DNA of 64,000 nucleotides, from assembly GCF_017565745.1 (NCBI RefSeq), contig NZ_JAGDYM010000007.1, forward strand, positions 186,001 through 250,000, read 5' to 3'. This document shows, piece by piece, positions 32,469 to 58,930 of this stretch. The DNA comes from Leucobacter weissii. Lineage in GTDB: Bacteria > Actinomycetota > Actinomycetes > Actinomycetales > Microbacteriaceae. The notes beneath the pieces were generated by a model, which was not told the origin of the DNA, searched no databases, and saw nothing but the letters and a program-made list of their open reading frames with translations. Each line of letters opens with the position of its first letter. Position 1 is the stretch's first letter. The position numbers and the translations under genes were made by a program.

Positions 32469-32470
32469 TC

Positions 32471-33094: not shown

Positions 33095-33114
33095 ACCAGG
33101 TCGGAGGAACACGC

Positions 33115-34919: not shown

Positions 34920-34963
34920 GCGGCCGGTGATCCGCGCCGCCGGATCGCTCCGGCTCCGGCGCC

Positions 34964-35749
34964 CTACCGCCTCCGGCGCGGTCGGCTCCGCGCGCGCGGG
35001 AGGCGCCGGGCTCCGCGGCCGTCCGGGGTGCGGGCCGCCGGCGTCCTCCTCGGAGTCTCCGGCTCCGCCTCCGCGTCGGAGGCGCGCGAACTGCGCGCGG
35101 TGCGTCCGCGCATGATCGCCACGAGCCGCTGCACATCGTCCGCGTCCCGCTCGACGTCCCAGGTCGCCCAGACGGAGGTGCCCGCGAGCGGGGGATCGGC
35201 CTCGACGCGCAGCACCGCGTGGCGGCCCTTCTCCGCCAGATGACGGGCCAGGGGCAGGGGGAGCAGCACGCCTCCGGTGCCCGTCGCTGCGAACTCCAGG
35301 GCCTCGCCCGCATCCGCAGGAGCCCATGCGGGGTCCGGTCGGGGCCCGGGAGGCGGCCACGCCGCCGCATGATCCGGATGGCCGATCAGCTCGATCAGCT
35401 CGATCGTCGCCCGGTCGATCGTCGCCTGCTCGGCGACTTCGTGCTCGGCCGCGACGACGAGCGCGATTTCTTCGGTGTAGAGGCGCACCGCGTGGCGATC
35501 CTGCGTCGGCGGCTCCGCTCCCGCGGGCCGTGCGCCCGGCGCGGCGCGCTCGAGCAGCACATCCGCCGCCGGGGGCGCTTCGCCGGAGGAGAACGGAATC
35601 AGCTCGAGCGGAGTCGACGTCCGCTCGTGCCAGCGCCGCGCCCACTTCCCCGGGGCGATGCCGCGGACGAAGCCGAGCCTCAGCGGCGCCGGTTCCGGAG
35701 CCGACGCGGCGGACGCCGATCGCCCCGCCGGCGGCCGGCCGGAGCTCAC
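34964..35749 (-). CDS. LysR-type substrate-binding domain protein without DNA-binding domain
   Basis: 261-residue protein resembling only the effector domain of LysR-type regulators: LRLGFVRGIAPGKWARRWHERT at the start, LYTEEIALVVAAEHEVA near 95-115, GTGGVLLPLPLARHLAEKGRHAVLRVEADPP near 160-190. No helix-turn-helix is present. The C-terminal 40 residues are an arginine-, proline- and serine-rich tail. The GTG overlaps the stop of the MGMT-family gene (GTGA). Stand-alone LysR effector proteins exist in actinobacteria, but their role is unclear. Confidence 0.7.
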   Translation of the reverse strand: MSSGRPPAGRSASAASAPEPAPLRLGFVRGIAPGKWARRWHERTSTPLELIPFSSGEAPPAADVLLERAAPGARPAGAEPPTQDRHAVRLYTEEIALVVAAEHEVAEQATIDRATIELIELIGHPDHAAAWPPPGPRPDPAWAPADAGEALEFAATGTGGVLLPLPLARHLAEKGRHAVLRVEADPPLAGTSVWATWDVERDADDVQRLVAIMRGRTARSSRASDAEAEPETPRRTPAARTPDGRGARRLPRARSRPRRRR

Positions 35750-36111
35750 GGCGCCGCCTCGGCGTAGATCTCGTGGTCGTAGTCCAGGCGCGCGGAGGAG
35801 AGCGCGATCCGGTAGCCGTCCGCGAGATCCCCGCCGCCGCGGGGTTCGCGCAGCGGGGTGCCCTCCTCGAGATAGTGCGGCAGCGCGAGCCGCTCGTGAC
35901 CCCGCGGTGGGCCGCCGCTCGCGGGGACGACCCGCCACCACGGCACCGCGTGGCCGTAGTAGGCCATGACGCGGCCGACCGCGCGGGGCGCGTTCGTTCC
36001 GAGGGCCCAGGCCAGGTCGCCGTAGGTGACGACGCGGCCAGGAGGGACGCGTCTCACGAGATCGAGCACCGCGCTCACGAAATCGTTGTCGACGAATTCG
36101 GGGCCTGGCAT
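35746..36111 (-). CDS. MGMT-family alkyltransferase-like protein lacking the cysteine
   Basis: 121-residue protein with the compact DNA-binding domain of O6-methylguanine methyltransferases. VPPGRVVTYGDLAWALG (24-40) and AVGRVMAYYGHAVPWWRVVPASG (about 44-68) are visible. The catalytic PCHR motif reads PWWR, so it cannot accept alkyl groups and belongs to the ATL (alkyltransferase-like) type. ATL proteins bind alkylated bases and recruit nucleotide excision repair. ATG start; stop overlaps the next gene. Confidence 0.88.
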   Translation of the reverse strand: MPGPEFVDNDFVSAVLDLVRRVPPGRVVTYGDLAWALGTNAPRAVGRVMAYYGHAVPWWRVVPASGGPPRGHERLALPHYLEEGTPLREPRGGGDLADGYRIALSSARLDYDHEIYAEAAP

Positions 36112-44364: not shown

Positions 44365-44645
44365 GGATTCCCTCCCCCTGCCCGTGGTGAGACCATAGCC
44401 CACCCCTCGGGCGCCCTCAAGGCCTTGCCGCCCCGATGGGGCTGTGCCGCCGCAGTCGGGTTCGCGACGCGATCGGCCGCCGCGTCCTCGATCATCGGCT
44501 ACTATCTGCTCATGCGCGCGCAGACCGTCGTGGGCCCGCTGCTCTCCGGCTCCGGCGCTCGCCGTCGCCGATCCGCGGCAGCGCGATGCGAGGCGGTTCC
44601 GTCCGGGTTTCCGCTCGGTGTTCCTCAAGAGGGTGGGTGGCAGAC

Positions 44646-45017
44646 ATGGCGCTGGTCTGGGTGCTCGGCGCGGTGTGCTTCGAGGTGTTCGCCACGGTGT
44701 CGCTCCGAGCAGGAGTCGACGACTCGCGCTGGTACCTGGCTGCGACGCTCGGATACGTCGTCTCCTACGCCCTCCTCGGCCTGGCGCTTCGCGCCGGTAT
44801 GCCCGTCGGAGTCGCCTACGCGATCTGGGGCGCGGTCGGCGTCGTCGCCACGGCGATCCTCGGCATCGCGCTGTTCGGCGAGGGACTGAGCATTCCGCAG
44901 CTGCTCGGCATCGGCGTGATCGTGCTCGGCGTGGTCCTCGTCGAGACCGGCGCGGGCAGACGGAGCGCTCCTGCCGGCGGAGCCGAATCCGGCGGTCTCG
45001 AACGGGGGCTCTCGTGA
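44646..45017 (+). CDS. SMR-family small multidrug/guanidinium transporter, subunit 1
   Basis: 123-residue membrane protein with four helices. The key glutamate of the SMR (EmrE/SugE) family is present in VCFEVFATVSLRAG near residue 13. GMPVGVAYAIWGAVGVVATAILG near 55-77 is the signature region. It has an extra polar C-terminal tail of about 20 residues. ATG with a weak GAGGGTGG upstream. It is paired with a second SMR gene, overlapping by one base, which suggests a heterodimer. Confidence 0.9.
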   Translation: MALVWVLGAVCFEVFATVSLRAGVDDSRWYLAATLGYVVSYALLGLALRAGMPVGVAYAIWGAVGVVATAILGIALFGEGLSIPQLLGIGVIVLGVVLVETGAGRRSAPAGGAESGGLERGLS

Positions 45018-45331
45018 TGGCCTGGACCTGGCTGCTCGCCGCCATAGTGTTCGAGGTGGCGGCGACGCTCTGCCTGAGCGCATCCGACGGCCTGCGCAAG
45101 AAGAGGTGGCTGGCGCCGGTCGCGCTCGGGTACGCCGCAGCGTTCCTCCTCCTCTCGCTCTCCCTGCGGGAGGGGATGCCGGTCGCGGTGGGCTACGGCA
45201 TCTGGACGGCGGTCGGAATATCGGCCGTGGCTATTCTCGCGCGGGTGATCTGGAAGGATCCGCTCACCCGGCGCATGCTGGTCGGCATCGCGCTGATCGT
45301 CGTCGGCGTGGCGCTCGTGCGCCTGGGATAG
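45017..45331 (+). CDS. SMR-family small multidrug/guanidinium transporter, subunit 2
   Basis: 104-residue partner of the preceding gene. The conserved glutamate is in IVFEVAATLCLSAS near residue 13; the loop GMPVAVGYGIWTAVGISAVAILA corresponds to the SMR signature. The start overlaps the stop of the first gene (TGATG). Tandem SMR genes are known as EbrAB/YkkCD-type heterodimers. No guanidine riboswitch was found upstream. Substrate cannot be decided. Confidence 0.9.
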   Translation: MAWTWLLAAIVFEVAATLCLSASDGLRKKRWLAPVALGYAAAFLLLSLSLREGMPVAVGYGIWTAVGISAVAILARVIWKDPLTRRMLVGIALIVVGVALVRLG

Positions 45332-45955: not shown

Positions 45956-46762
45956 TCATCCCGGGCTCACGGTGAACTGCGGGGCCGCCGCCAGCTGCGC
46001 GTAGTCCGTGCTGATCTGGCTCGCCGTGCGCAGCAGCAGCGGTAGGCACTCGTCGATGAGCTGCCGATGGCTGAGCTCCGAGGAGATCGCCGCGATGTTG
46101 ATCGCGGCGAAGACTCGACCCTCGCCATCGCGCAGCGGAGCGGCGACCGAGCGGACTCCGGGATGGATCTCCTCGTCGGTCGCGGCCCAGCCCTGTGCCC
46201 TGATCTCCCGGAGCTGCTCCTCGAGCATGCGGCGGTCGATCGGATGGTGCGGGATCACGGGGGAGCGGGGGGCGAGCGCGAGGGTCGTCTCGAGGTGCTC
46301 CGGCGAGAGCGACGCGAGCAGCACCTTGCCGAGCGCGGTGCTCTCGCTCGGCAGGCGAGTGCCGACGTCGACCGAGAGCGCGACCATCTTGGGGATCTCG
46401 ACTCTGGCCACGTAGATGATGTCGGCGCCGTCGAGCTGAGCGATCGAGGCGGCTTGGTTGGTCGTCTTCACGAGATCCGCGAGATGGGCCCGCGCCGCGG
46501 CCCATACGCCGCTTCGCAGCACGTGGGCCATGCCCAGTTCGAGTACGCGGGGGGTGACGGTGTAGCCGCCCTCTTCGCTGCGCACGTAACCGAGATGCTC
46601 GAGGGTGAGGATGACTCGCCTGGCGGTGGCCCGCGCCAGGCCGGTGGAGGTCGCGACCTCCCGGAGCGTGAGCGGACGTTTGCTGTCGCCGAAGCTCCGG
46701 AGCACCTCGACACCTCGAGCCACCGCTTCGACGAAGTCGGGCCCCACCTCATTCCGCGACAC
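45956..46762 (-). CDS. IclR-family regulator (PcaR/PobR-like) of the aromatic operon
   Basis: 268-residue regulator. Winged helix at about 12-70 (LTLREVATSTGLARATARRVILTLEHLGYV) and an effector domain at about 90-260 with DIIYVARVEIPKM, GTRLPSESTALGKVLLA and EIHPGVRSVAAPLRDGEGRVFAAINIAA, all typical of PcaR/PcaU/CatR-type IclR proteins. It is divergent from the catabolic operon at 47031, and the AT-rich gap between them has several palindromes. Its likely effector is an aromatic acid or ring-cleavage intermediate. Confidence 0.9.
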   Translation of the reverse strand: MSRNEVGPDFVEAVARGVEVLRSFGDSKRPLTLREVATSTGLARATARRVILTLEHLGYVRSEEGGYTVTPRVLELGMAHVLRSGVWAAARAHLADLVKTTNQAASIAQLDGADIIYVARVEIPKMVALSVDVGTRLPSESTALGKVLLASLSPEHLETTLALAPRSPVIPHHPIDRRMLEEQLREIRAQGWAATDEEIHPGVRSVAAPLRDGEGRVFAAINIAAISSELSHRQLIDECLPLLLRTASQISTDYAQLAAAPQFTVSPG

Positions 46763-46792
46763 CGAAGCGGCTCCTCACTCTTCCTTATGCAT

Positions 46793-46900
46793 CTCGAGAA
46801 TTTCGAGTTTCACCAGTATAAGAATACACGGTTTTGCCGTTCAGCGAACGAGTGGCCAGTTTTCAAAACTCACCGGTATTCCCGGAATATCAAGATATTC
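46793..46900. promoter_or_regulatory. Cluster of palindromes, candidate IclR operators
   Basis: Four short inverted repeats lie in the AT-rich gap: CTCGAGAATTTCGAG (46793-46807), GTTCAGCGAAC (46839-46849), AGTTTTCAAAACT (46858-46870) and GAATATCAAGATATTC (46885-46900). The last ends eight bases before a perfect TTGACA box, a position suited to a regulator. Binding is not shown. Confidence 0.5.
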
Positions 46901-46907
46901 ATCGGAC

Positions 46908-46936
46908 TTGACAAAGCGGTTGGGGTGGATCACAAT
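46908..46936 (+). promoter_or_regulatory. Promoter of the hydroxyquinol-type operon
   Basis: A perfect TTGACA box (46908-46913) and a CACAAT box (46931-46936) are separated by 17 bases. Transcription would start near 46943, giving a leader of about 90 bases that contains the tandem repeat before the TTG start of the monooxygenase. Confidence 0.6.
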
Positions 46937-46981
46937 CGGAAATGCGCCGATAGTGCCCGCTGAGCGAACACTAGGGCGGTA

Positions 46982-47019
46982 GATGAACTCAATGAGGAGT
47001 CGATGAACTCAATGAAGAG
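46982..47019 (+). repeat. Tandem 18-base direct repeat at the leader end
   Basis: GATGAACTCAATGAGGAG (46982-46999) is repeated as GATGAACTCAATGAAGAG (47002-47019), one mismatch. Each copy carries a ribosome-site-like GAGGAG or GAAGAG. The second copy supplies the Shine-Dalgarno sequence of the monooxygenase gene. Confidence 0.8.
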
Positions 47020-47030
47020 GAGCGTGGATC

Positions 47031-48554
47031 TTGGATCTGTCTGACATGTTCGATGTCGTCGTCGTCGGGGCCGGCCCGGCGGGCAGCACCGTCGCCGCGG
47101 AGGCCGCGAGAGCGGGGGCCTCCGTATTCGTCGCCGAGAAACGGACCGGCGACTCTCCGTCCCGGGCGGGGGTGATCCAGCCGCGCGTGCTCGAGCAGCT
47201 CGCGCTGCGCGGCATGATGGGCCGGTTCCGCGAGGCGGCAGCGGAATGGCGACCGGACTTCGAGGTCCCGCTCTACATGTACGCCGGCCAGCTGGGCCTG
47301 AGATACCACGAGATGGACAGCGACTTCCCCTACGCGCTGATCCTCCCTCAGACCACCACCGAGCATCTGCTCCGCGCATGGGCGCAGGAGCAGGGCGCCG
47401 AGCTCCGTCGCGGTGTCACCTACGTCGGGCACCGCGAAGAAGCAGACGGGGTCTCGGTCGATTTCGAGGACCAGAACGGCGAGACGATCACGGTCGGGGG
47501 CCGCCACCTGGTGGGCGCGGACGGGGCCCGCAGCCAGGTCAGAACGGCCGCCGGCATACCCTTCGAGGGGCGGGAGACCACGCTGACGGCTCTCTCGGTC
47601 GACGCGGATCTCGACTTCCCCTGGCCGGTCGGCATGAAGATGTTCAAGAACGGCGCCGGATGGATCCTCTCCTATCCGTTCGGCAAGAACACCACGCGCT
47701 TCATCATCGTCGCGGAGGCGGCCCGGCATACTCCGTTGTCGGTCGCGGTCACCCTCGACGAGGTCACGGAGCATCTGCGGGCCATCGCGGGCACGGACTT
47801 CGAGATCCGGTCGGCGAAGCGGATGTCCCGCTACGGGGACGACCACAAGACGGTGCCCCTCCTGACACGGGGGGCGGTCTCCCTCGTGGGCGAGGCCACC
47901 CGGGTGCACTATCCCGCGAGCGGCATCGGCATGAACTACTGCATCCAGGACGCCTTCAACCTCGGATGGAAGCTGGGGGCCGTGGCCACGGGGCGGGCAA
48001 CCGAGGATCTCCTGATCAGCTATCACGAGGAGCGCTACCCCGTGCTGCAGAAGCTCATGGCCGATGTCGACACACAGACGTCGCTGAACTTCAACTTCTC
48101 CGAGGCGGGAAGGCAGCTGCAGAAGTTCTTCGAGGAGGAGCTCGTGCCGATCCCCGAGGTGAACCGGATCCTCCGGGACCGGCTGAGCGGCTTCGGAACC
48201 AGCTATCACCGGGAGGAGGACGCGCACCCCGCGATCGGAGAACGCGTGAGCCGGCTCACGCTCGACGACGGTCGCAGCTACGCCGAGCTCGCCGCGACCG
48301 CGGACTTCGTGCTCATCGAGCGGCAGGCCCCGGACTCCGCGAGGAGTCTCCCGGACCGCACCGCCTACGGAACCGTTCGCGATCTTCCCGCGAGCACCAC
48401 GGCGCGAGGGGCGGAGGCGCTGCTGGTCAGGCCCGACGGCTACATCGGCCACGCGTGGGCCGACGCTCCCGCGGACCGCGAGATCCGGGAGGCTCATGAC
48501 CGTTCGTTGCGGCGGGCGAAGGCCCCGACCGCCACTGCCGGGGCGGGGGTGTGA
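47031..48554 (+). CDS. Class A FAD-dependent aromatic monooxygenase
   Basis: 507-residue flavoprotein hydroxylase of the PHBH/PgaE-MhpA group. FAD motif GAGPAG is at 13-18 and the DG motif GADGARS at 162-168. The second flavin motif reads GEATRVHYPASGIGMN from 287, so the usual GD is GE. A C-terminal thioredoxin-like domain follows (RSYAELAATADFVLIE, VRPDGYIGHAW). TTG start at 47031 with GAGGAG eight bases upstream; ATG 47046 is less likely. It heads an operon ending in hydroxyquinol cleavage, so it probably adds a hydroxyl to a resorcinol- or aminophenol-like ring. NADH or NADPH preference is not decided. Confidence 0.88.
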   Translation: MDLSDMFDVVVVGAGPAGSTVAAEAARAGASVFVAEKRTGDSPSRAGVIQPRVLEQLALRGMMGRFREAAAEWRPDFEVPLYMYAGQLGLRYHEMDSDFPYALILPQTTTEHLLRAWAQEQGAELRRGVTYVGHREEADGVSVDFEDQNGETITVGGRHLVGADGARSQVRTAAGIPFEGRETTLTALSVDADLDFPWPVGMKMFKNGAGWILSYPFGKNTTRFIIVAEAARHTPLSVAVTLDEVTEHLRAIAGTDFEIRSAKRMSRYGDDHKTVPLLTRGAVSLVGEATRVHYPASGIGMNYCIQDAFNLGWKLGAVATGRATEDLLISYHEERYPVLQKLMADVDTQTSLNFNFSEAGRQLQKFFEEELVPIPEVNRILRDRLSGFGTSYHREEDAHPAIGERVSRLTLDDGRSYAELAATADFVLIERQAPDSARSLPDRTAYGTVRDLPASTTARGAEALLVRPDGYIGHAWADAPADREIREAHDRSLRRAKAPTATAGAGV

Positions 48555-49900
48555 GCATCATGGCGACCATTTCGCGCAGAACCCTGATCCGCGGAGGCAC
48601 GGTCATCGCCGGGGCCGAGGCGGGCGAAGCGATCGAACGCGGCGAGGTGCTCGTCGACGACGGGATCGTCGTCGCGGTCGGCCGCTCCCTCGAAGCCGAG
48701 GGGGCCGAGATCGTCGAGGCGGACGGGATGATCGTCATGCCGGGGCTCGTCGACACGCACAAGCACACCTGGCAGTCCGCGATCCGGCATCGTTGCACCG
48801 ACATCGACCTCAACCCCTACTTCGGCGAGATGTTCGCGAACCGGGGGGCGAGATACTCCGCGGAAGACGTCTACATCGGGAACCTCCTCGGCGCGCTCGC
48901 CGCGATCGACGGCGGAACGACCACGCTGATGGACTGGTCGCACATCCAGAACTCGCCCGCGCACAGCGACCGGGCGATCGACGCCCTCCAGGAATCGGGG
49001 ATCCGTGCGATCTTCGGGCACGGCTGGCCGTGCGTCGATCTCTTCGACTGGATCGCCGACAGCGCACTGCCGCACACGGACGACGTGAGACGGATCCGGG
49101 AGAGCCGCCTCTCGGACGATGGGGCGCTCGTGACCCTGCAGCTCGCGGGACGCGGCCCCGAACTCGCCACGATCGAGGCGACCCGCGCCGACCTGGCGAT
49201 GGCGCGAGACCTCGGGATCCGCACCTCCATCCACATGGGGTGCGGCGTGGAGCGCGGAGAGCTCGCCGCGATCGCGCAGCTCGGGGAGGCCGGACTGCTC
49301 GGATCCGACCTGAACTTCGTCCACTGCAGCGAGAGCAGCGACGCCGAGCTGGACCTGATGGCCGAGCACGGCATCAGCATCTCGCTCGCCCCCCAGCACG
49401 AGTTCATCATGGGCGGGATCGGCTACAGCCCGATCGACCGCTGTCAGGCCCGGGGCATCAGCATCGGCCTCAGCAGCGATACCGAAGCGGTCGGTCCGGC
49501 GGATCTGTTCGTGCAGATGCGCGCGGCGCTGGCCGCGCAACGGAGCGTCGTCAACGAGGGCCGCAGTCGCGCCGTGCCGGTGCCCGAGCCGCTGTCTGCG
49601 GCCGATGTGTTCCGGATGGCCACGCTCGGAGGAGCGGAGGCGTTGGGAATCGCCGATCGCGTCGGAGTGCTCCGCCCCGGCTACCAGGCCGATCTCATCC
49701 TCATCCGCGGGGCCGATCTGAATCTGCACCCCGTCTCGGATCCGATCGCGGCCGTGGTGACGGCGGCCCATCCGGGGAACGTCGACTCGGTCATGGTCGC
49801 CGGGCGCTTCCTGAAACGAGCCGGCGCGCTGGTGGGCCGCGATCTCGAGGGGGTGCGCGCCGCCGCTCAGGAGTCCCACGATCGGCTCCTGCGCGACTGA
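48551..49900 (+). CDS. Amidohydrolase of the AtzB/TrzA/8-oxoguanine deaminase group
   Basis: 449-residue metal-dependent aminohydrolase. The first metal motif is MPGLVDTHKHTW with H70 and H72; other ligands lie in SIHMGCG near 221, NFVHCSES near 258 and SDTEAVG near 317. The fold is complete with both strand sandwich ends. Members remove amine or chloride groups from heterocycles or deaminate aminopurines. In this operon it may deaminate or hydrolyse an aromatic or heterocyclic amide. Starts with GTG overlapping the monooxygenase stop (GTGTGA); ATG 48560 is an alternative. Confidence 0.82.
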   Translation: MSIMATISRRTLIRGGTVIAGAEAGEAIERGEVLVDDGIVVAVGRSLEAEGAEIVEADGMIVMPGLVDTHKHTWQSAIRHRCTDIDLNPYFGEMFANRGARYSAEDVYIGNLLGALAAIDGGTTTLMDWSHIQNSPAHSDRAIDALQESGIRAIFGHGWPCVDLFDWIADSALPHTDDVRRIRESRLSDDGALVTLQLAGRGPELATIEATRADLAMARDLGIRTSIHMGCGVERGELAAIAQLGEAGLLGSDLNFVHCSESSDAELDLMAEHGISISLAPQHEFIMGGIGYSPIDRCQARGISIGLSSDTEAVGPADLFVQMRAALAAQRSVVNEGRSRAVPVPEPLSAADVFRMATLGGAEALGIADRVGVLRPGYQADLILIRGADLNLHPVSDPIAAVVTAAHPGNVDSVMVAGRFLKRAGALVGRDLEGVRAAAQESHDRLLRD

Positions 49901-49955
49901 GACGGATGACCGAGACCCGACCACCAGATATCGACAGCAAGAAAGCAGAGCACGC

Positions 49956-50912
49956 ATGACACTCGATCCAGAATTCGCCGGGTTCCTCTCCTTCCTGAAG
50001 GAGGTGGGCGCCCCTTCGACGTTCGACGGCACGCCGGAGGAGGCCAGGCTGCGGATGGCGGAGACCATCGAGGGGGGATGGGATCGCGACGCCTTCCCGG
50101 CGGTCGCCTCGGTATCGGAGCAGGAGGTGGGATCGATCCCGACCCCGGTGCAGATCGTACGGCCGGTGACGGAGAAGGCCAGCGTCCCCACCGTCGTGCT
50201 CTTCCATCCCGGAGGATTCATCGTCGGCGCGGCGCGGCTCGTGCAGGACGTGGCCCAGCGACTCGCGAACGAGATGGAGGCCGTGATCGTCTCCGTCGAC
50301 TATCGACTGGCTCCCGAGCATCCGTTCCCCGCCGCGCCCGAAGACGCCGTCGAGGTGACGGCCTGGGCGCATGCGCACATCTCCGAGCTGGGAGGGGATG
50401 CCGCGAGGCTCGCCGTCGCGGGGGAGAGCTCCGGCGCCAACCTCGCCACCGTCGCCGCGCGTGCGATGCGGGATCGCGGCATCCCGGTGGCGGCCCAGCT
50501 CCTCGCGTCGCCGTACACCGATTTCTCGAGGGACTACCCGTCCGCGCTCGAGAACGGCGCCGGCTTCTTCCTCTCGAAAGCCGACCTCGATCTGATCCGG
50601 CGCACCTACCTCCCCGACGCCGAGGCGGCGAGGCTCCCGGACGCCTCTCCCGCGCGCGGCGATCTGGCGGGCACGGCTCCGGCCGTGATCGGCGTCGCGG
50701 GCTTCGACCCCCTGCGAGACGACGGAACGGTCTACGCGGCGAAACTGCTGCAGGCCGACGTGCCCGTGCAGCTCCGGGTCTTCCCCGGACTCATCCACCC
50801 GTTCTTCGGCATGGCCGGAGTCTCGGCGGCGGCTCGGGCGGCGGGGGACGAGCTGATCGCCCTGTTCTCCGCCGCGATCGAGCGGTCGGCTCTGGTCCCC
50901 GCCTCGGCGTAG
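49956..50912 (+). CDS. Alpha/beta hydrolase, HSL (hormone-sensitive lipase) type
   Basis: 318-residue esterase/lipase-like enzyme. The oxyanion motif is HPGG at 84-87 (in place of HGGG), the nucleophile elbow GESSG at 156-160 with S158, an aspartate is in VAGFDPLRDDG near 248, and a histidine in LIHPFFG near 280. Likely hydrolyses an ester or amide bond of the substrate before ring cleavage. Its ATG follows the amidohydrolase by 55 bases, with AAAGCAGAG upstream. It is followed by a transport cassette. Confidence 0.85.
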   Translation: MTLDPEFAGFLSFLKEVGAPSTFDGTPEEARLRMAETIEGGWDRDAFPAVASVSEQEVGSIPTPVQIVRPVTEKASVPTVVLFHPGGFIVGAARLVQDVAQRLANEMEAVIVSVDYRLAPEHPFPAAPEDAVEVTAWAHAHISELGGDAARLAVAGESSGANLATVAARAMRDRGIPVAAQLLASPYTDFSRDYPSALENGAGFFLSKADLDLIRRTYLPDAEAARLPDASPARGDLAGTAPAVIGVAGFDPLRDDGTVYAAKLLQADVPVQLRVFPGLIHPFFGMAGVSAAARAAGDELIALFSAAIERSALVPASA

Positions 50913-50948
50913 ACCACTTATATCACTCACCTGAAAGGACACAGACGA

Positions 50949-52109
50949 ATGAGTCTCAAAGAACGTCGGCGCAACGGTGCGCTGGCACTGCTCGCCGTCG
51001 CCGCGCTGCTCACCAGCGCGTGCGCCGGCGGAGGATCCGCCTCGACCACCGACGGAGGAGACGAGGCCCCCACGGCCTCGGCGAGCCCGGTCAGCCTCGA
51101 GGAACTGGCCGCGGGCGACTACGGCGCGCCGCCGACGAGCGCGCCCCCGATCGCCGAGGACAAGTCGATCTGGATCGTCTCGTGCGGGCAGAACGCGATC
51201 GGCTGCGCCATCGGAGCGGAATCCGCGAAGGAGGCCGCCGAGTCGCTCGGCTGGACCGCGCAGGTCTGCGACGGGCAGTTGAACGCCGGCGGAGCGTTCG
51301 CGGACTGCGTCCGCCAGGGCATCGCGGCCGGCGTGGACGGCATCGTGACCGAGGCCATCGACTGCAGCGTGATCCAGGATCCGCTGCGCGAGGCCGAGGC
51401 CGCCGACATCGTCACCGTGAACTTCTGGGGCTTCGACTGCGACCAGGGGGTGAATCCCGCCGGGGATCCGCTCTTCTCCGCCTCGGTGCAGCCCTCCGAG
51501 GAGTATGCGAGCAACGAGGACTATCAGTTCGCCGTCGGGCAGGCCCGCGCCGAATGGATCATCGCGGCGTCGGGCGGCGAGGCGGAGATCATCGAACTCG
51601 AGTTCAAGGGGACCAACATCGGCGGAGTGCTCTCCGCCGGATTCCACGACGCGATCGAGAGCTGCGGATCCTGCACGGTGCACACGGTCGACGTGACGCA
51701 TCAGACGTTCGGCGACGCGCGCCAGATCGTCGAGTCCGCGCTGCTGCAGCACCCCGCGGCCGAGTGGGTCGCGATCCCGCTCGAATCGCTCGTCCTGCTG
51801 GGCGCCGCCCAGGCGGTCGCGTCGTCACCCCGCTCCTCGGATATCTCCCTGATCGGCGGCGAGGGCTTCCCGCCCAACCTCGATCTCATCCGCGAGGACC
51901 AGGGCCAATCCGCGTCGGTCGGCCAGCCGATCGGATGGTACGGCTACGGCGCGATCGACACCATCAACCGCGTGTTCAACGGGGAGTCCGCGGTGCCGCA
52001 GGGGATGAGCTTCCAGATCGTCGACGCGGAGCACAACCTTCCCGACGAGGGCGGGTACGTGCCTCCCGTGGACTACGAATCCGCCTACCGCGAGGCGTGG
52101 GGAGTCTGA
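50949..52109 (+). CDS. Ribose-type ABC substrate-binding lipoprotein
   Basis: 386-residue lipoprotein. Signal: RRR, LALLAVAALLTSAC with lipidated cysteine near 25. After a short Ser/Thr/Gly-rich linker, a periplasmic-binding-protein-like domain (PBP1 type, as for ribose) begins with IWIVSCGQNAIGCAIGAES. It is unusually rich in cysteine (several pairs, such as SCGQNAIGC and SCGSC). It feeds the RbsA/RbsC-like transporter that follows. Cargo is unknown; the catabolic genes around it suggest an aromatic or heterocyclic compound, not a sugar. Confidence 0.85.
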   Translation: MSLKERRRNGALALLAVAALLTSACAGGGSASTTDGGDEAPTASASPVSLEELAAGDYGAPPTSAPPIAEDKSIWIVSCGQNAIGCAIGAESAKEAAESLGWTAQVCDGQLNAGGAFADCVRQGIAAGVDGIVTEAIDCSVIQDPLREAEAADIVTVNFWGFDCDQGVNPAGDPLFSASVQPSEEYASNEDYQFAVGQARAEWIIAASGGEAEIIELEFKGTNIGGVLSAGFHDAIESCGSCTVHTVDVTHQTFGDARQIVESALLQHPAAEWVAIPLESLVLLGAAQAVASSPRSSDISLIGGEGFPPNLDLIREDQGQSASVGQPIGWYGYGAIDTINRVFNGESAVPQGMSFQIVDAEHNLPDEGGYVPPVDYESAYREAWGV

Positions 52110-53659
52110 TGGCCCCCGTCTCGACGGTTGTGCCCCGGCGGCCCGCGATGCGGGTCGCCGGGGCGACCAAGAGGTATCGAGGCATCCCGGCGCTGGACGG
52201 CGTCGAGCTGTCGATCGAGCACGGCGCCATCCACGCGCTGGCCGGCAGCAACGGTTCGGGCAAGTCGACGTTGATCAAGCTCCTCGCCGGGGTCGAGCAG
52301 GCCGATGGCGGCACGGTCACGGTCGGGGAGCGGACGGAACCGCTCGCGCACCTCGGCCCGCAGAACTCCCGCGCGCTGGGATTGCGCTTCGTGCATCAGC
52401 ATCCGGGGATCTTCGGCGACCTCACCGTCGCGGAGAACTTCGGCTTCACCCTCGACTTCCCGCTGCGCGCCGGTGGCATCGACTGGAGGCGGCTGCGTCG
52501 CCGCACCTCCGAACTGCTGGATCGCTACGAGATCATGGCGCGCCCGGATCAGCTCGCCAGAGAACTGCGGCCCGCGGCGCAGACCATGCTCGCCATCGCC
52601 CGGGCCCTCGCCGATGAGGAGGGCGGCGATCGGATCCTGGTGCTCGACGAACCGACGGCGAGCCTGCCGGCCCACGAGGTCGACGTGCTGCTCGAGGCGC
52701 TGAGCCGGAGAGCGCGACTGGGGCAGACGATCCTCTACGTCAGTCATCGTCTCTCCGAGGTCAAGGCGATCGCGAGCGACATCACCGTGCTCCGGGACGG
52801 CGTCGTCGTCGCCGACCGCTCGGTGGAGGGGCTGTCTCAGCATGACATGGTCGAGCTGATGGCCGGGGAGCCGCTGGAGGACTTCTATCCGCCGATCCCG
52901 GAGCCCGTCGCCGATCCGCGCCCGCTGCTCGAGATCAGCGGGCTGACCGCCGGTCCGCTCCGGGACGTGCGGCTCGCGGCCCACGGCGGACAGATCCTCG
53001 GGATCGCCGGACTGCTCGGCTCCGGCCGCTCGACCCTGCTGCGCTCCATCTTCGGGGCGCTGCCCACCGGGGCGAGCGTCGTCGTCGACGGTCGTGAATT
53101 CGACGGCTGGTCGATGCACCGCGCCCTGGAGCAGGGCATCGCCCTCGTCCCGGAGGACCGGCCGGGCGAGGCGCTCTTCAGCACCATGTCGGTGGTGGAG
53201 AACGCCACCATCGCCGCGCTGGACGAGTTCAGCGACGGACCTCAGCTGAGGCGGGGCCGGGAGGCGGCGGCCTATGCGGACATGAGCGATCGCCTGAAGG
53301 TCAAGGCCGCCTCTCCGGAGCTTCCCATCACGGGCCTGTCCGGAGGGAACCAGCAGAAGGTGATCCTCGGGCGGTGGCTGCAGCGCTCGCCCGCGGTGGT
53401 GCTGCTCGACGAGCCGGCCCAGGGTGTCGACGCGATGGCCAGGGCGGAGATCTACCACCTGCTCAGATCGGTCGCGTCGGAGGGCCGAGCGGTGATCATC
53501 GCCTCCTCCGACTACGAGGAGCTCTCCAACCTCTGCGACCGGGTCGTCGTGCTGCGCGACGGCCGGATCGTCGCCGACCTCACCCACGACGAGGCGTCGA
53601 TTCCGACGCTCATCGAGTACTCGAACACGCCCGCAACCGCCGAGCAAGGATCACCATGA
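52109..53659 (+). CDS. Ribose-type ABC ATPase with two nucleotide-binding domains
   Basis: 516-residue RbsA/MglA-like protein with two tandem NBDs. The first has Walker A GSNGSGKST near 48-56 and Walker B ILVLDEPTAS near 182-191. The second has GLLGSGRST, where arginine replaces the lysine of Walker A, as usual for this family, plus SGGNQQK and VVLLDEPAQGVD near 430. The ATG overlaps the stop of the binding-protein gene by one base (TGATG). It powers the importer of this operon. Confidence 0.93.
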   Translation: MAPVSTVVPRRPAMRVAGATKRYRGIPALDGVELSIEHGAIHALAGSNGSGKSTLIKLLAGVEQADGGTVTVGERTEPLAHLGPQNSRALGLRFVHQHPGIFGDLTVAENFGFTLDFPLRAGGIDWRRLRRRTSELLDRYEIMARPDQLARELRPAAQTMLAIARALADEEGGDRILVLDEPTASLPAHEVDVLLEALSRRARLGQTILYVSHRLSEVKAIASDITVLRDGVVVADRSVEGLSQHDMVELMAGEPLEDFYPPIPEPVADPRPLLEISGLTAGPLRDVRLAAHGGQILGIAGLLGSGRSTLLRSIFGALPTGASVVVDGREFDGWSMHRALEQGIALVPEDRPGEALFSTMSVVENATIAALDEFSDGPQLRRGREAAAYADMSDRLKVKAASPELPITGLSGGNQQKVILGRWLQRSPAVVLLDEPAQGVDAMARAEIYHLLRSVASEGRAVIIASSDYEELSNLCDRVVVLRDGRIVADLTHDEASIPTLIEYSNTPATAEQGSP

Positions 53660-54759
53660 CGACCACCTCCAACACCATCCCACTCCCCGACGAGGCGCCG
53701 GGGAGCGCGCTTGCCGCACGTCTCGCCGATCTGGGAGAGCGATTCGGCCTGCTGATCCTCGTCGCCCTCGTCTGGGCGATGTTCGCGCTGCTGCCGTCGA
53801 GTTCGGCGGCCTTCACCTCCGCGGCCAATCTCCAGGTCATCCTCGCCAACCTGCCCGTGGTGACGATCGTCGCGATCGCCGCCATCTTCCCGCTCATCTG
53901 CGGGCACTTCGACTTCTCGGTGGGCGCCACGGCGGTGCTCAGCTCCATCGTCTGCGCGGCGGCGCAGTCCCACTTCCAGCTCCCGCTGCCGCTCGCCATC
54001 GCGGCCGGCGTGCTGGCGGGAGCCGTCGTGGGCGTTCTCAACGCGGCGCTCGTGGCCGGACTGCACCTGAACGCGTTCGTCGTGACCATCGGCATGGCCA
54101 CCCTGGTCCCCGGCGTCGTGCACTGGTACACGGGCGGCGTCGACATCACCAGCAACATCGCCCAGCCCCTGCGCGAGTTCGGCTCGCAGCAGTGGCTCGG
54201 CCTGCCGCGCTCCATCTGGCTCCTGCTCGGCGTGGCGGTCGTCTGCTGGTACCTGCTCACTCAGACCCCCTTCGGCCGCCGCAGCTACGCGGTCGGCATC
54301 AACGCGGCCGCCGCCAAGCTGGTGGGGATCAGGGTCGACCGCGTCGCGTTCGCCAGTTTCCTCCTCTCGGGGGCGCTGGCGGGCCTCGCCGGCATCGTGC
54401 TCACCGCCAGGAACGGCGGCGGGCTGGTCGGCGACGGGACCGATCTGCTCTTCCCCGCGCTGACCGCCGTGTTCCTGGGCGCGACCGCCATCACGCCCGG
54501 CAGGTACAACGTCATCGGCGTCGTCATCGGCGTGCTCTTCGTGGCGGTCTCGGTGAGCGGACTCCGGCTCTCGGGGGCTGCGGACTGGCTTCCCGCCGTG
54601 TTCAACGGGACGGCGCTCATCGCCGCGATCGCGCTCTCGACGGCGCTGTCCAGGCGGCGGATGAACACCCCCGGCAGACGCGCCGCCGCGCGCGATCGCA
54701 AGAGGACCGCGGCGAGTAGCGTCGGCGACGGGAACAGAGTGAAGGAGATGAGCCGATGA
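53656..54759 (+). CDS. Ribose-type ABC permease
   Basis: 367-residue inner-membrane permease of the RbsC/AraH family with about eight to ten helices. Marks: LICGHFDFSVGATAVLSS near 78-95 and GINAAAAKLVGIRVDRVAFASFLLSGALAGLAGIVLTARNGG near 214-255. Start overlaps the ATPase stop (ATGA). The C-terminal tail is basic. Its stop overlaps the ATG of the dioxygenase gene, which ties the importer to aromatic breakdown. Confidence 0.93.
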   Translation: MTTTSNTIPLPDEAPGSALAARLADLGERFGLLILVALVWAMFALLPSSSAAFTSAANLQVILANLPVVTIVAIAAIFPLICGHFDFSVGATAVLSSIVCAAAQSHFQLPLPLAIAAGVLAGAVVGVLNAALVAGLHLNAFVVTIGMATLVPGVVHWYTGGVDITSNIAQPLREFGSQQWLGLPRSIWLLLGVAVVCWYLLTQTPFGRRSYAVGINAAAAKLVGIRVDRVAFASFLLSGALAGLAGIVLTARNGGGLVGDGTDLLFPALTAVFLGATAITPGRYNVIGVVIGVLFVAVSVSGLRLSGAADWLPAVFNGTALIAAIALSTALSRRRMNTPGRRAAARDRKRTAASSVGDGNRVKEMSR

Positions 54760-55631
54760 CCTCGGATCTTCGCGGTCGAGAACTGACCGAGCAGGTGGTG
54801 CGCAGCTTCGCCGAGACCCCCGACCCGCGGCTTCGCCAGGTGCTCGAGAGCCTCGCCCGGCACCTGCACGCCTTTGTGAACGAGGTGTCGCCGACGATCG
54901 AGGAGTGGGAGGCCGGCATCGACTTCCTCACTCGGACGGGCCAGACCTGCACCGATGTGCGGCAGGAGTTCATCCTCTTCTCCGACGTGCTCGGGGTCTC
55001 GATGCTGGTCGAGACGATCAACGACGCCGAGACCCCCGACGCCACCGATTCGACGGTGCTGGGCCCGTTCCACATGGTCGAGTCGCCCGCGCGGGCGCTG
55101 GGGGACGACGTCTCCCCGCAGAGCCGGGGGGAGACGACCGTCGTGCGGGGCAGGGTGGTGGACACGACCGGGCGTCCCGTTCCCGGTGCCGTGATCGACG
55201 TCTGGCAGGCGAACGCGGAGGGCTTCTACGACGTGCAGCAGAGCGGTGTCCAGGAGGTCGGCAACGGGAGAGGCCTGTTCCGGGCGGACGAGGAGGGGCG
55301 GTTCTGGTTCCGCACCATCATCCCGGCCCACTACCCGATCCCGACCGACGGGCCGGTGGGGGAGTTGCTCGTCGCCACGAGGCGGCACCCGTATCGGCCC
55401 GCGCACATCCACTTCATCGTGGATGCTCCGGGCTACCGGGAGCTGACCACGCACATCTTCGTCGCCGGAAGCGAGTACATCGACTCCGACGCCGTCTTCG
55501 CGGTCAAGGACAGCCTCGTCAAGTCCTTCGAACCCGTGGACTCGGCCGAGCTGGCGGCCGACTTCGGCGTGACGGCGCCGTTCCGTCTCGCCGGTTTCGA
55601 TATCGTGCTCCACACCGAAAGCGAGGACTGA
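54756..55631 (+). CDS. Hydroxyquinol 1,2-dioxygenase
   Basis: 291-residue intradiol ring-cleavage dioxygenase. It opens 1,2,4-trihydroxybenzene to maleylacetate using Fe(III). The four iron ligands can be placed: Y158 in WQANAEGFYDV, Y193 in HYPIPTDGP, H217 and H219 in RPAHIHF. The N-terminal helical linker domain (1-105) is that of catechol/hydroxyquinol dioxygenases. The following gene is maleylacetate reductase, which fits hydroxyquinol better than catechol. ATG overlaps the permease stop (ATGA). Confidence 0.93.
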   Translation: MTSDLRGRELTEQVVRSFAETPDPRLRQVLESLARHLHAFVNEVSPTIEEWEAGIDFLTRTGQTCTDVRQEFILFSDVLGVSMLVETINDAETPDATDSTVLGPFHMVESPARALGDDVSPQSRGETTVVRGRVVDTTGRPVPGAVIDVWQANAEGFYDVQQSGVQEVGNGRGLFRADEEGRFWFRTIIPAHYPIPTDGPVGELLVATRRHPYRPAHIHFIVDAPGYRELTTHIFVAGSEYIDSDAVFAVKDSLVKSFEPVDSAELAADFGVTAPFRLAGFDIVLHTESED

Positions 55632-55635
55632 AGCC

Positions 55636-56691
55636 ATGATCGAATTCTCCTACGAGGCACTGCCGATGCGCGTGCGGTTCGGCGCCGAGGCCGCCCAGGC
55701 GGTGGGCGACGAGATCCGTCATCTGGGCCTGAGCCGCGTGCTGATGCTCTCCACCCCGTTCCAGGCCGAACTGGCCCGGAACCTCTCGCGGCAGCTGGGC
55801 GGACTCAGCGCCGGCGTCTTCTCGGAGGCGGAGATGCATGTACCGGTGGAGGTCGCGGCCAAGGCGCGCGCGGCGGCCGGAGAACTGGGCGCCGACGCCT
55901 GCGTGGCGGTCGGCGGAGGCTCGACGATCGGCCTCGGGAAAGCGATCGCGCTCGAATACGGACTCCCCATCATCGCCGTGCCCACCACGTTCGCAGGATC
56001 GGAGATGACCCCGATCTGGGGGATCACCGAAGGCGGCGAGAAGAAGACCGGGCGGGATCGGAGGGTGCTGCCGACCAGCGTCGTCTACGACCCCGAGCTC
56101 ACCAGGACGCTGCCGACGGGGATGTGCGTGGTCAGCGGGTTCAACGCCATCGCGCATGCCGTCGAGGGGCTCTACGCGCCCGATCGGTCGCCGATCATCT
56201 CGCTCATGGCGGCGGAGGGCGTGCGAGCGCTCTCGCGCTCGCTGCCGGCGATCGTCGCGGAGCCCGGCGCGGTGGCGCCCCGCGCCGACGCGCTCCGCGG
56301 ATCCTGGCTGTGCGGCGCGGTGCTGGGCGCCACCACGATGTCCCTGCATCACAAGCTCTGCCATGTGCTGGGCGGGAGACTGAACCTTCCGCACGCCGAG
56401 ACGCATACCGTGGTGCTGCCGCATGTGCTGGCGTTCAACCAGCCGGTCGCCGGCGACGCGCGTCGATCGCTGGAGGAGGCGCTCGGCGTCGACGATCCGG
56501 CGCGGGAGCTGCAGCGACTCGCCCGCGAGCTCGGCGCCCCCGGCTCTCTGGCCGAACTCGGCATGCGAGAGACCGACGTCGCGGCGGTCGTGGAGCAGGT
56601 GCTCGCGCAGCCCTACGCCAATCCGCGGCCGGTCGATGCCGCGGCGGCCTCCGCGATCGTCCGGAACGCGTTCTCGGGGGCCGAGGTCTAG
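55636..56691 (+). CDS. Maleylacetate reductase
   Basis: 351-residue iron-type alcohol dehydrogenase-like enzyme that reduces maleylacetate to 3-oxoadipate with NAD(P)H. Dinucleotide and family marks: VAVGGGSTIGLGKAIALEYGLPIIAVPTTFAGSEMT near 93-125, and metal-type ligands in HAVEGLYAP near 174 and HHKLCHVLGG near 236. It follows hydroxyquinol dioxygenase by four bases, with GGACTGAAGCC as weak ribosome site. The product enters the beta-ketoadipate route, whose later genes are not in this window. It ends 21 bases before the convergent response regulator. Confidence 0.93.
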   Translation: MIEFSYEALPMRVRFGAEAAQAVGDEIRHLGLSRVLMLSTPFQAELARNLSRQLGGLSAGVFSEAEMHVPVEVAAKARAAAGELGADACVAVGGGSTIGLGKAIALEYGLPIIAVPTTFAGSEMTPIWGITEGGEKKTGRDRRVLPTSVVYDPELTRTLPTGMCVVSGFNAIAHAVEGLYAPDRSPIISLMAAEGVRALSRSLPAIVAEPGAVAPRADALRGSWLCGAVLGATTMSLHHKLCHVLGGRLNLPHAETHTVVLPHVLAFNQPVAGDARRSLEEALGVDDPARELQRLARELGAPGSLAELGMRETDVAAVVEQVLAQPYANPRPVDAAAASAIVRNAFSGAEV

Positions 56692-56712
56692 AACCGCGGG
56701 CCCGGCGCCGGA

Positions 56713-57381
56713 TCAGGTCGGTCCGGCCGCGAGCCGGTAGCCGACGCCGCGCACCGTCTCGATGCGACTCGAGCCCAGCTTCTGGCGCAGGTAGCCGACG
56801 TAGACGTCGACGATGTTCGAGCCGGGGTCGAAGTCGTAGCCCCAGACGCGGCTCAGCAGCTGCTCGCGGCTGAGCACCTGCCCCGCATGGCGCACGAGCT
56901 CCTCCGCGAGCGCGAACTCGCGCGCCGACAGCTCGATCGCCTGCTCGCCGACGTGCGCGCGCCGCGTGCGGATGTCGAGGCGCAGGTCGCCGCAGGTCAG
57001 ATCGGCTGGCGCCGCGGCGCCGTCCACGCGCATCCTCGCCCGGACGCGGGCCAGCAGCTCGTCGAAGAAGAACGGCTTGCCGAGATAGTCGTCGGCCCCG
57101 TGCTCGAAGCCGGCGATCGTGTCGTGCAGCTCCACGCGGGCGGTGAGCATGATCACGGGAAGCCGCGATCCGGAGCCGCGCAGCTGCTCCAGCACGTGGA
57201 AGCCGTCGAAGCCGGGCAGGCCGACGTCGAGGACCATCAGGTCGAACTCGTCGGTCAGCGCGAGCTGCAGCGCCTCCGGCCCGGTCGTGGCGACCCGGGT
57301 CGCGAATCCCGCGGCGCGCAGGCCCTTCTCGACGAATCCCGAGATGCGGGGCTCGTCGTCCGCGATGAGAATCGATGCCAA
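56713..57381 (-). CDS. OmpR-family response regulator
   Basis: 222-residue regulator. Receiver domain with phosphoacceptor D52 (LMVLDVGLPG), conserved D8/D9, and the lysine in YLGKPF near 102. A C-terminal winged helix has LSAREFALAEELVRHAGQVLSREQLLSRVWG and the YVGYLRQKLG recognition part. A TTG start at 57381 with AGGAGAG about eight bases upstream. It is encoded after the kinase with a gap of four bases, so both come from one message. Confidence 0.93.
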   Translation of the reverse strand: MASILIADDEPRISGFVEKGLRAAGFATRVATTGPEALQLALTDEFDLMVLDVGLPGFDGFHVLEQLRGSGSRLPVIMLTARVELHDTIAGFEHGADDYLGKPFFFDELLARVRARMRVDGAAAPADLTCGDLRLDIRTRRAHVGEQAIELSAREFALAEELVRHAGQVLSREQLLSRVWGYDFDPGSNIVDVYVGYLRQKLGSSRIETVRGVGYRLAAGPT

Positions 57382-57385
57382 GGTG

Positions 57386-58930
57386 TCACTCTCCTGTTCC
57401 GGTTCGGCCGATGTCGGCCGGCTGCGGGCGTTCGGCGCCCGGCGGCGGCGCAGGGTCCTCCGAGGAGCCGGCCGGCCGCTCGCCGCCCTCCGGGATGGCG
57501 ATGACGAAGCGCGCTCCGCCGCCCGCGGCGTCCTCGACCCAGACCTCCCCGCCGTGCGCCCGCGCGATGACCTGCACGATGTTGAGGCCGAGGCCGCTGC
57601 CGACCCGCTCGCCCGCCGCGCTGCCGCGGGTGAAGCGCTCGAAGATGCGCGCCTTCGCGTCGTCGTCCACGCCGGGGCCGTGGTCGCGCACCCAGAGCAG
57701 CAGCCGCGACTCGTCGGTGCGGGGGTCGACGTCGGTGCGGCTGCCGATCTCGACGCGGCCGCCGCCGTGCGTGACCGCGTTCTGCACGAGCTGCAGCACC
57801 GCCTGGGTGATCCGCGCCGGATCGAGCAGCGCGACCCCGTCGGCCACGACTCCCGGAGAGACCTCGGCTCCGGCGATGCCGCTCGCCTTGCGCGCGATCT
57901 GATGCACCAGGTCCGAGACGTCGACGGGCCGCGGCTGCACCGGGCTCGGGCCGTGCAGAGCGGCGGAGTCGGCGAGATCCTGCACGAGCCGGGCCATGCG
58001 CGCGAGCTCGTCGATCGCGAGCTCGCGGGTCGCGCGCGTGTCGTCCGGGTCGTCGGGATCCATCACCTCGAGGTGGCCCCGCACGATCGTGATCGGGGTC
58101 TTCAGCTCGTGCCCGACGTCGCTCAGCAGCCGGCGCTGCGACTCGAGCGCGTCGTCGAGCCGGTCGAGCATGCTGTTCATGGTGTCGGCGAGTTCGGCCA
58201 CGTCGTCGTTGCCGACGATCGGCAGGCGCTCGTCGAGGGACCTCGCGGACACCCGGTCCGCGGTCTCCCTCATCTGGCGCAGGGGCCGGAGCAGCCGGGT
58301 CGCGACGATCGTTCCGGTGGCGGCCACGACCACCAGCACGATGGCGGAGACGACCACGAACATGCGCGCCGCCTCGTCGAACTCCGCGAGCTCCCGGTCG
58401 AGGTCGTAGACCATGACGAACGTGGTATCCGCCGAGCCCGAGGATCCCTCGACCCGGATCGGGGTCGACAGGTAGCGCCAGGCCACGCCGTTCTCCGCAT
58501 AGGTGCCGATCCGCGGATCGTCGCCCTCCGTCATCGCGGCGACGTGCGCGGCGAACGCGTCCTCGCCCTGCAGGTCCAGATCGAGGTCGACGCCGGGGAC
58601 GATGGCGATCCGGCCGTCCACCATGCCCAGCGCGCCGGTGTTGTCGTCGGGGCTCATCCGCTCCACTACCGCAGTCAGCGCATCGGTCGCCGATGCCCAC
58701 CTCCCCGAGTCGGGATGCCCCTCGGTGACGATGTACCTGGCGGATTCGAGGTTCGCGCGCAGGCGCACGTCCACCTGTTCGAGGATGCGGTAGCGCTCGA
58801 CGAGATACACGGACACGCCCACCGCGAGCAGGCCGAGGGCCGTCACCACGGTGATGACGGCGATGATGCGGGTGCGCACGGAGAACGAGAGGGCGCGCTG
58901 GCGGCCGCCTCGCTTGGTCGTCGTACTCAC
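57386..58930 (-). CDS. Sensor histidine kinase
   Basis: 514-residue membrane kinase. Two membrane segments (about 20-42 and 190-212) enclose an extracytoplasmic sensor of about 145 residues. A HAMP region follows, then the dimerisation box DVGHELKTPITIVRGHLE with H274. The catalytic domain has N, D and G boxes (LVQNAVTHGGG, RDHGPGVDDD, GSGLGLNIVQ). GTG start. It lies first in the kinase-regulator pair. The signal is not known; no target genes are adjacent. Confidence 0.93.
   Translation of the reverse strand: MSTTTKRGGRQRALSFSVRTRIIAVITVVTALGLLAVGVSVYLVERYRILEQVDVRLRANLESARYIVTEGHPDSGRWASATDALTAVVERMSPDDNTGALGMVDGRIAIVPGVDLDLDLQGEDAFAAHVAAMTEGDDPRIGTYAENGVAWRYLSTPIRVEGSSGSADTTFVMVYDLDRELAEFDEAARMFVVVSAIVLVVVAATGTIVATRLLRPLRQMRETADRVSARSLDERLPIVGNDDVAELADTMNSMLDRLDDALESQRRLLSDVGHELKTPITIVRGHLEVMDPDDPDDTRATRELAIDELARMARLVQDLADSAALHGPSPVQPRPVDVSDLVHQIARKASGIAGAEVSPGVVADGVALLDPARITQAVLQLVQNAVTHGGGRVEIGSRTDVDPRTDESRLLLWVRDHGPGVDDDAKARIFERFTRGSAAGERVGSGLGLNIVQVIARAHGGEVWVEDAAGGGARFVIAIPEGGERPAGSSEDPAPPPGAERPQPADIGRTGTGE

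Follow-up and report, generated by a model that had tools for sequence, protein, structure and literature searches.

A likely aromatic-catabolic operon of Leucobacter weissii with a ribose-type importer and a hydroxyquinol branch

Operon layout, ring cleavage and regulation

The window analysed here, a stretch of 64,000 nucleotides of Leucobacter weissii DNA, carries eight genes on one strand (47031-56691, + strand) that likely form an aromatic-catabolic operon ending in a hydroxyquinol branch. In order, these are predicted to encode a flavin adenine dinucleotide (FAD) monooxygenase, an amidohydrolase, an HSL-type hydrolase, the binding protein, ATPase and permease of an ATP-binding cassette (ABC) importer, an intradiol dioxygenase and a maleylacetate reductase, with Pfam and NCBIfam concurring in the family calls. 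The location matches that given in an earlier note on this DNA, and a recount bore out its account of genes joined by overlaps of 1-4 bases: these are of 4 bases (monooxygenase/amidohydrolase), 1 base (binding protein/ATPase), 4 bases (ATPase/permease) and 4 bases (permease/dioxygenase), while the remaining three joints are gaps of 55, 36 and 4 bases.

The intradiol dioxygenase (54756-55631, + strand; PF00775 and PF04444) is of the hydroxyquinol 1,2-dioxygenase type. Its predicted iron ligands, Y158, Y193, H217 and H219, are all found at the positions named previously, giving the two-tyrosine/two-histidine set. The best solved relatives are PnpC (280 bits), 6-chlorohydroxyquinol dioxygenase (278 bits) and hydroxyquinol 1,2-dioxygenase (265 bits); the top five score 260-280 bits, three of them being named (chloro)hydroxyquinol enzymes, versus 141 bits for the first catechol dioxygenase. 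The last gene (55636-56691, + strand) encodes a protein of the iron-type alcohol dehydrogenase family, called a maleylacetate reductase from its nearest solved relatives (3w5s, 336 bits, and 3hl0, 325 bits, versus 108 bits for the next non-member). It also matches the unnamed structures 3jzd (373 bits) and 3iv7 (292 bits) and reaches no NCBIfam model at that model's own cut-off. These nearest solved relatives support the predicted succession of hydroxyquinol-type cleavage and maleylacetate reduction that the earlier note had proposed. A candidate sink for 3-oxoadipate lies on a separate contig (C12), where two CoA-transferase pairs (PF01144) and a thiolase adjoin Dioxygenase_C genes (PF00775 matches) and plausibly make up a 3-oxoadipate route. 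Some 8 kb past the end of the window, an open frame of 747 residues contains a further, partial match to Dioxygenase_C (G000:C22:257851-258144; positions 3-97 of 182).

The first gene (47031-48554, + strand; TTG start) encodes a single-component FAD monooxygenase with a C-terminal Rng_hyd_C domain (PF01494 and PF21274) and the motif GAGPAG at residue 13. Among solved proteins it is closest to rifampin and polyketide oxygenases (216-186 bits), and it may hydroxylate a ring; the earlier note supposed that it makes hydroxyquinol from a resorcinol- or aminophenol-like one. The HSL-type alpha/beta hydrolase (49956-50912, + strand; PF07859, 206 bits), with a GESSG nucleophile motif at 156, is a putative esterase or amidase.

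A scan of contigs with the amidohydrolase returned nine loci. The earlier note had proposed a search for the same gene order in other actinobacteria, and in Herbiconiux ginsengi (L005) nine genes recur, namely all eight of the operon and a divergent IclR-family gene, in identical order and at 62-74% identity (IclR 67, monooxygenase 66, amidohydrolase 71, HSL-type hydrolase 62, binding protein 67, ATPase 62, permease 74, dioxygenase 69 and reductase 68%). This recurrence indicates that the arrangement is more than chance.

The IclR-family regulator (45956-46762, - strand; GTG start; Pfam IclR_C and HTH_IclR) and a promoter-like site were absent from the earlier note and are added here. The regulator is nearest the PcaR/PcaU/PobR subfamily and scores 243.4 bits against TIGR02431, below the cut-off of 284.75 for membership. 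The sigma-70-like site TTGACA-17-CACAAT (46908-46936, + strand) lies upstream of the operon and came from a consensus scan of 46700-56800 that found two such sites, with 0.3 expected; TTGACA is present too in the corresponding intergenic stretch of H. ginsengi. A search for a conserved IclR operator gave four short inverted repeats in the window, none of them recovered in H. ginsengi. In the leader immediately before the monooxygenase gene (46982-47015), the 14-base word GATGAACTCAATGA occurs twice, 20 bases apart, these being its two matches in the window; 100 shuffles gave none. The G+C content of the cluster (0.699) and the window (0.711) was compared for signs of foreign origin and proved uninformative. 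Downstream, a two-component pair on the opposite strand (56713-57381 and 57386-58930) was recognised by reading. At 44436-45331 are two adjacent small multidrug-resistance (SMR)-like membrane proteins, resembling paired SMR transporters, the first assigned by PF00893 and the second by reading.

The amidohydrolase and the core around it

The second gene (48551-49900, + strand; GTG start) encodes an amidohydrolase-superfamily protein belonging to NF006056/PRK08204 (516.8 bits versus a cut-off of 391), an uncharacterised family named 'hypothetical protein'; it is the sole protein of the operon to score above the cut-off of an uncharacterised family. Its metal ligands are H70, H72, H228, H258 and D310, of which H228 is kept in 68 of 70 aligned rows and the other four are invariant. 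Position 231, three residues after the third histidine, holds the glutamate of the HxxE motif in AtzA and AtzB; the window protein has cysteine there, and among the 70 rows glutamate is never found (aspartate in 14, a gap in four). Glu284, by contrast, is glutamate in 67 of 70 rows and aspartate in two, where AtzA has asparagine and AtzB valine; on this alignment it is the family's own residue and not one shared with AtzA/AtzB. The placement of these residues rests on a MAFFT alignment that includes distant rows; HMMER alignments to solved deaminases put a glutamate adjacent to the histidine, and again the window protein has none there. Identity is 26.5% to AtzB and 23.8% to AtzA, and the solved relatives include SAH-deaminase-like proteins (123.7 bits) and the enamidase 2vun (25.5 bits, over the first 74 residues only). 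The protein had previously been called AtzB/TrzA-like and thought to strip an amide or amine. The superfamily and the metal ligands stand, the AtzB-type assignment is not supported as worded, and the missing HxxE glutamate weakens the proposed deamination while not itself indicating an alternative reaction.

Beyond H. ginsengi, the monooxygenase (62%) and the amidohydrolase (67%, over 221 residues) lie together at the end of a contig in a Leucobacter metagenome-assembled genome (L006, 147-8521). The genes upstream of this pair include an additional FAD monooxygenase, an IclR gene (33%) and a branched-chain/urea-type permease, which brings the transporter types found near the core to four. The nine same-genus genomes listed gave no match to the amidohydrolase at 1e-60, the monooxygenase at 1e-80 or the binding protein at 1e-30, and the monooxygenase is matched in two of 398 family genomes (one being its own) and one of 396 phylum genomes (its own). 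The operon thus looks accessory within its genus.

A search of plasmids by tblastn recovered more distant records. The order monooxygenase-amidohydrolase-HSL-type hydrolase is kept on plasmids of Cupriavidus sp. P-10 and C. pinatubonensis HN-2 and on a replicon of Burkholderia cenocepacia CMCC(B)23006 (monooxygenase 41, amidohydrolase 48-50 and HSL-type hydrolase 44-45% identity), with a LysR gene, an MFS transporter and a porin in place of the IclR gene and the ABC importer. FAH and VOC genes follow the core in HN-2 and B. cenocepacia, and plasmids of Rhodococcus J1-2 and ZPP carry monooxygenase, amidohydrolase, alpha/beta hydrolase, MFS, FAH and VOC genes in rearranged order. FAH and VOC-type dioxygenase genes replace the intradiol pair in four of these five records (three Burkholderiales and two Rhodococcus). 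In C. necator C39 the amidohydrolase, monooxygenase and hydrolase occur with a TctC-type receptor. A further group combines an MhpA-type monooxygenase (28% identical to that of the window) with alpha/beta hydrolase, amidohydrolase, CoA transferase and citryl-CoA-lyase-like genes, and is accompanied by a LigB-type dioxygenase in Rhodococcus NBC_00297, an RbsABC-like importer in genome G036 and a dioxygenase 45% identical to that of the window in R. opacus G13 and G903.

Quick trees, with SH-aLRT support only, were built for the amidohydrolase and the importer ATPase. The amidohydrolase tree has 72 rows, including AtzA, AtzB, the window gene twice and several paralogues per locus. A monooxygenase lies within 9 kb in 13 of the 72, all inside one 20-row clade (SH-aLRT 98); the other seven rows of this clade have none within that distance, though L049 has one about 13 kb off (L101). 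Other amidohydrolases of the clade adjoin intradiol (L063, L086) or LigB-type (L062) dioxygenases. With the duplicate removed, monooxygenase presence requires three changes on the tree versus 9-12 in 200 label shuffles, so the monooxygenase travels with this lineage of amidohydrolases, and it is the importer and the ring-cleavage genes that vary. The monooxygenase, amidohydrolase and esterase are a conserved core with differing importers and ring-cleavage genes.

Relatives outside the monooxygenase-bearing clade (33-42% identity; group E) have RbsABC importers as cluster neighbours, along with ketopantoate-reductase-like, Zn-alcohol-dehydrogenase and M24 genes. In at least 13 of the 44 loci counted, the amidohydrolase has an RbsA-like ATPase within 8 kb; neighbour counts are lower bounds, as the gene caller merged or missed genes (e.g. 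the L005 dioxygenase and the L063 amidohydrolase), and they omit loci whose amidohydrolase is below 38% identity (L040, L046 and L051 among others). Recurrent Microbacteriaceae clusters (L035, L036, L037, L041, L052, L053) hold two or three NF006056-like amidohydrolases with an RbsABC-like importer of another branch; ApbA, Zn-alcohol dehydrogenase, Dabb and M24 proteins are among their scanned members. The window itself has a second catabolic-looking set at 31107-35941, consisting of a gene at 31107-32468, an isochorismatase-domain protein, AA_synth (PF06684), a short amidohydrolase (33720-34919) and a divergent LysR-type gene; the short amidohydrolase resembles that of the operon over its first 65 residues only.

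The importer and its branch

All three parts of a ribose-type (CUT2) importer are present, confirming that it is complete, as the earlier note had stated. The substrate-binding protein (50949-52109, + strand; Peripla_BP_4, PF13407, 80.2 bits) has a lipobox-like TSAC and matches solved sugar-binding proteins weakly (best E 2.3e-5 with a profile), and its alignments to ribose-binding proteins are too weak around the sugar contacts for residue comparison. It is followed by an RbsA/AraG-like double ATPase (52109-53659, + strand; AraG 369.7, XylG-like 369.4 and RbsA 360 bits, each below cut-off) and an RbsC/AraH-like permease (53656-54759, + strand; BPD_transp_2, PF02653, 128.3 bits; AraH 141.4 bits, below cut-off). 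No named sugar-transport model was reached at its cut-off among the NCBIfam models listed.

Kin of the importer were picked by similarity of the binding protein and not by context. Eleven of 398 family genomes gave a match at 1e-30, and the 13 kin loci comprise ten from this search, including one in the same genome (L124), and three plasmid loci chosen by hand (L114-L116; from 12 listed of 101 records). An FAH-type hydrolase occurs in six of the 13 versus none of seven control stretches (one-sided Fisher P 0.044, a modest difference), the controls being stretches around other RbsA-like genes of the same genome, some of them overlapping. In L114 it is accompanied by a cupin and maleylpyruvate isomerase, in L117 by an FAD monooxygenase and a glyoxalase-fold dioxygenase, and in L120 and L123 by a VOC gene each; L124 and L126 complete the six. 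Among the others, L116, L122 and L125 lie beside AMP-binding and acyl-CoA dehydrogenase genes, L118 beside thiolase and electron transfer flavoprotein (ETF) genes and L119 and L121 beside amidases, and L115 has broken-looking genes and amidase fragments. None of the control stretches matched FAH, VOC, cupin, intradiol or monooxygenase queries; weak matches occurred to acyl-CoA dehydrogenase in one of them and to HSL and reductase in another. The VOC3, FMO3, FMO4 and cupin queries were drawn from the kin loci, so the FAH queries (L057, L058) are the only independent test. The importer at L124 (G000:C29:46000-65900), the second of this branch in the genome (ATPase 47% and permease about 50% identical), adjoins a cyclase (PF04199) and two FAH-type hydrolases.

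In the ATPase tree, the window, H. ginsengi, G036 and the 13 kin form 16 rows together (SH-aLRT 99), with the control and group E outside. This gives moderate support for aromatic or related carboxylic compounds as what the branch transports, and since the branch is often found beside ring-fission genes the cargo is probably not a sugar, as had been suggested before. The earlier note had also regarded a sugar-type importer joined to ring cleavage as unusual; this was partly right only, for the pairing recurs within one importer branch.

Interpretation and comparison with known systems

The preferred reading, to which we give a probability of about 0.6, is that the operon, under the control of IclR, serves to import a small phenolic compound and degrade it completely, in keeping with the catabolic role first proposed. 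The RbsABC-like importer would bring the compound in, and the FAD monooxygenase, the NF006056 amidohydrolase and the HSL-type hydrolase would together yield hydroxyquinol by one hydroxylation, one ester or acyl cleavage and one metal-dependent cleavage by a site without the HxxE glutamate, in whatever order. The intradiol dioxygenase would convert hydroxyquinol to maleylacetate and the reductase would form 3-oxoadipate, which could then enter central metabolism via the CoA-transferase and thiolase genes of C12. The analysis shows which genes are present and in what order, how they are conserved, their relatives, the active-site residues and the branch of the importer; from these we infer every reaction before hydroxyquinol, as well as the substrate class and the importer cargo. 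As substrate, a plant-type resorcinol or hydroquinone with an acyl, ester or lactone substituent is the best guess, ahead of N-substituted rings (aminophenols or benzoxazolinones, for example).

Several observations weigh against this reading. The monooxygenase reaches no NCBIfam cut-off among 25 of 75 models listed, and the C12 thiolase scores 419 bits, below the pcaF cut-off of 597. The triad of Cupriavidus sp. P-10 has no ring-cleavage gene within the 19 kb examined. Group E clusters, which combine the NF006056 family with importers of another branch, have no ring-cleavage gene either, so the amidohydrolase reaction need not concern aromatics. Seven of the 13 importer kin show no FAH, two of them beside amidases, and the importer control is small and from a single genome.

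Other readings differ in what they make of the amidohydrolase and the importer. A conventional AtzB/TrzA-type hydrolase could take an amine or amide off an aminophenol- or resorcinol-like ring, with the monooxygenase then making hydroxyquinol. All five metal ligands of the superfamily, the matches to deaminases and triazine hydrolases and the two importer kin adjoining amidase-family genes point this way, but the glutamate missing from all 70 rows (aspartate in 14, a gap in four) and the 26.5% identity to AtzB make it unlikely. Still less probable is that the amidohydrolase acts by ring opening or on a C-C or C-O bond instead of a C-N bond, perhaps using O2, in the manner reported for KpiC (GenBank MT469879). 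Although the active site is rewired and the same four protein superfamilies recur in the Cupriavidus clusters, the nearest relatives reported for KpiC, a protein likened here by description, are enamidase-like, whereas the window protein is closer to the SAH-deaminase-like proteins (123.7 bits) than to enamidase (25.5 bits); moreover, the operon already holds a dedicated dioxygenase.

An importer for a sugar or an aryl glycoside, merely neighbouring the ring-cleavage genes, is equally hard to credit. Its three parts are nearest sugar-transport models, and RbsA-like ATPases are common (nine matches at 1e-70 in the same genome). However, the permease and dioxygenase genes overlap by 4 bases in an order kept in H. 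ginsengi, kin importers adjoin FAH, VOC, cupin or CoA-ligase genes, the binding protein is distant from solved sugar-binding proteins, and Pfam and NCBIfam place no glycosidase or sugar kinase among the eight genes.

A more tentative proposal, and a doubtful one as a whole, goes beyond the preferred reading of a phenolic-degrading operon: that the importer branch serves phenolics or aromatics instead of sugars, and that in NF006056 the catalytic carboxylate has moved from HxxE to the end of strand 7, giving a new ring-processing reaction in a portable core with differing importers and ring-cleavage enzymes, both being undescribed. Should the branch carry aromatics, the label 'sugar ABC transporter' is wrong for many genes of Microbacteriaceae and other actinobacteria, and Gram-positive uptake of phenolics becomes directly testable through the soluble binding protein. 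Use of Glu284 for the usual glutamate would be a new catalytic layout in a model superfamily for enzyme evolution. The exchange of import and ring-cleavage modules about a common core shows how catabolic pathways come to be built. Specialist attention is best directed to the importer branch and the altered amidohydrolase.

Operons for resorcinol and gamma-resorcylate share the monooxygenase, hydroxyquinol 1,2-dioxygenase and maleylacetate reductase; they differ in having a decarboxylase of another amidohydrolase branch (PF04909) and secondary transporters. AtzA and AtzB of pADP-1 (L064) share the superfamily fold and metal ligands with the window protein at 24-27% identity, but possess the HxxE glutamate that is absent from its family. 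A check of the literature for conserved clusters of known substrate that combine these enzymes with an ABC importer showed none with this gene set among the papers listed, in a coverage that mostly excludes subscription journals. Breakdown of riboflavin or lumichrome, considered on account of the ribose-type importer, was dropped because the steps in the available part of the account (P450, thiamin-dependent, xanthine-oxidase and Rieske; PMC12746152) differ. The piperine hydrolase PipM, compared by description, is an amidohydrolase that acts on a tertiary amide, and the available excerpt (PMC12753220) shows no hydroxyquinol cluster.

Three systems, likened by description and not by sequence from partial accounts, come nearest. 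In hcdABC of Pseudomonas mandelii 7HK4, which acts on 7-hydroxycoumarin (PMC6222606), a class A FAD hydroxylase likewise feeds ring cleavage of a hydroxylated phenyl compound and an FAH-family hydrolase occurs as in the Cupriavidus relatives, but cleavage is extradiol rather than intradiol, and the excerpt mentions neither amidohydrolase nor importer. In the kpi cluster of Arthrobacter sp. IN13 (4-hydroxypyridine; PMC7356986), an FAD monooxygenase, an Amidohydro_1 protein and an alpha/beta hydrolase share one catabolic cluster with FAH; the Amidohydro_1 protein, KpiC, is reported to cleave 3,4-dihydroxypyridine, but is described as enamidase-like and as itself the ring-opening dioxygenase, the permease is of another family and the described part has no hydroxyquinol branch. 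In the ifc cluster of Variovorax (isoflavones; PMC11069340), an FAD monooxygenase hydroxylates a resorcinol-type A ring ahead of a glyoxalase-fold dioxygenase and an alpha/beta hydrolase, but cupins take the place of the amidohydrolase and, as far as the excerpt goes, there is no hydroxyquinol branch. By analogy, the substrates of these nearest known systems suggest hydroxylated phenyl compounds, benzopyrones or N-heterocycles.

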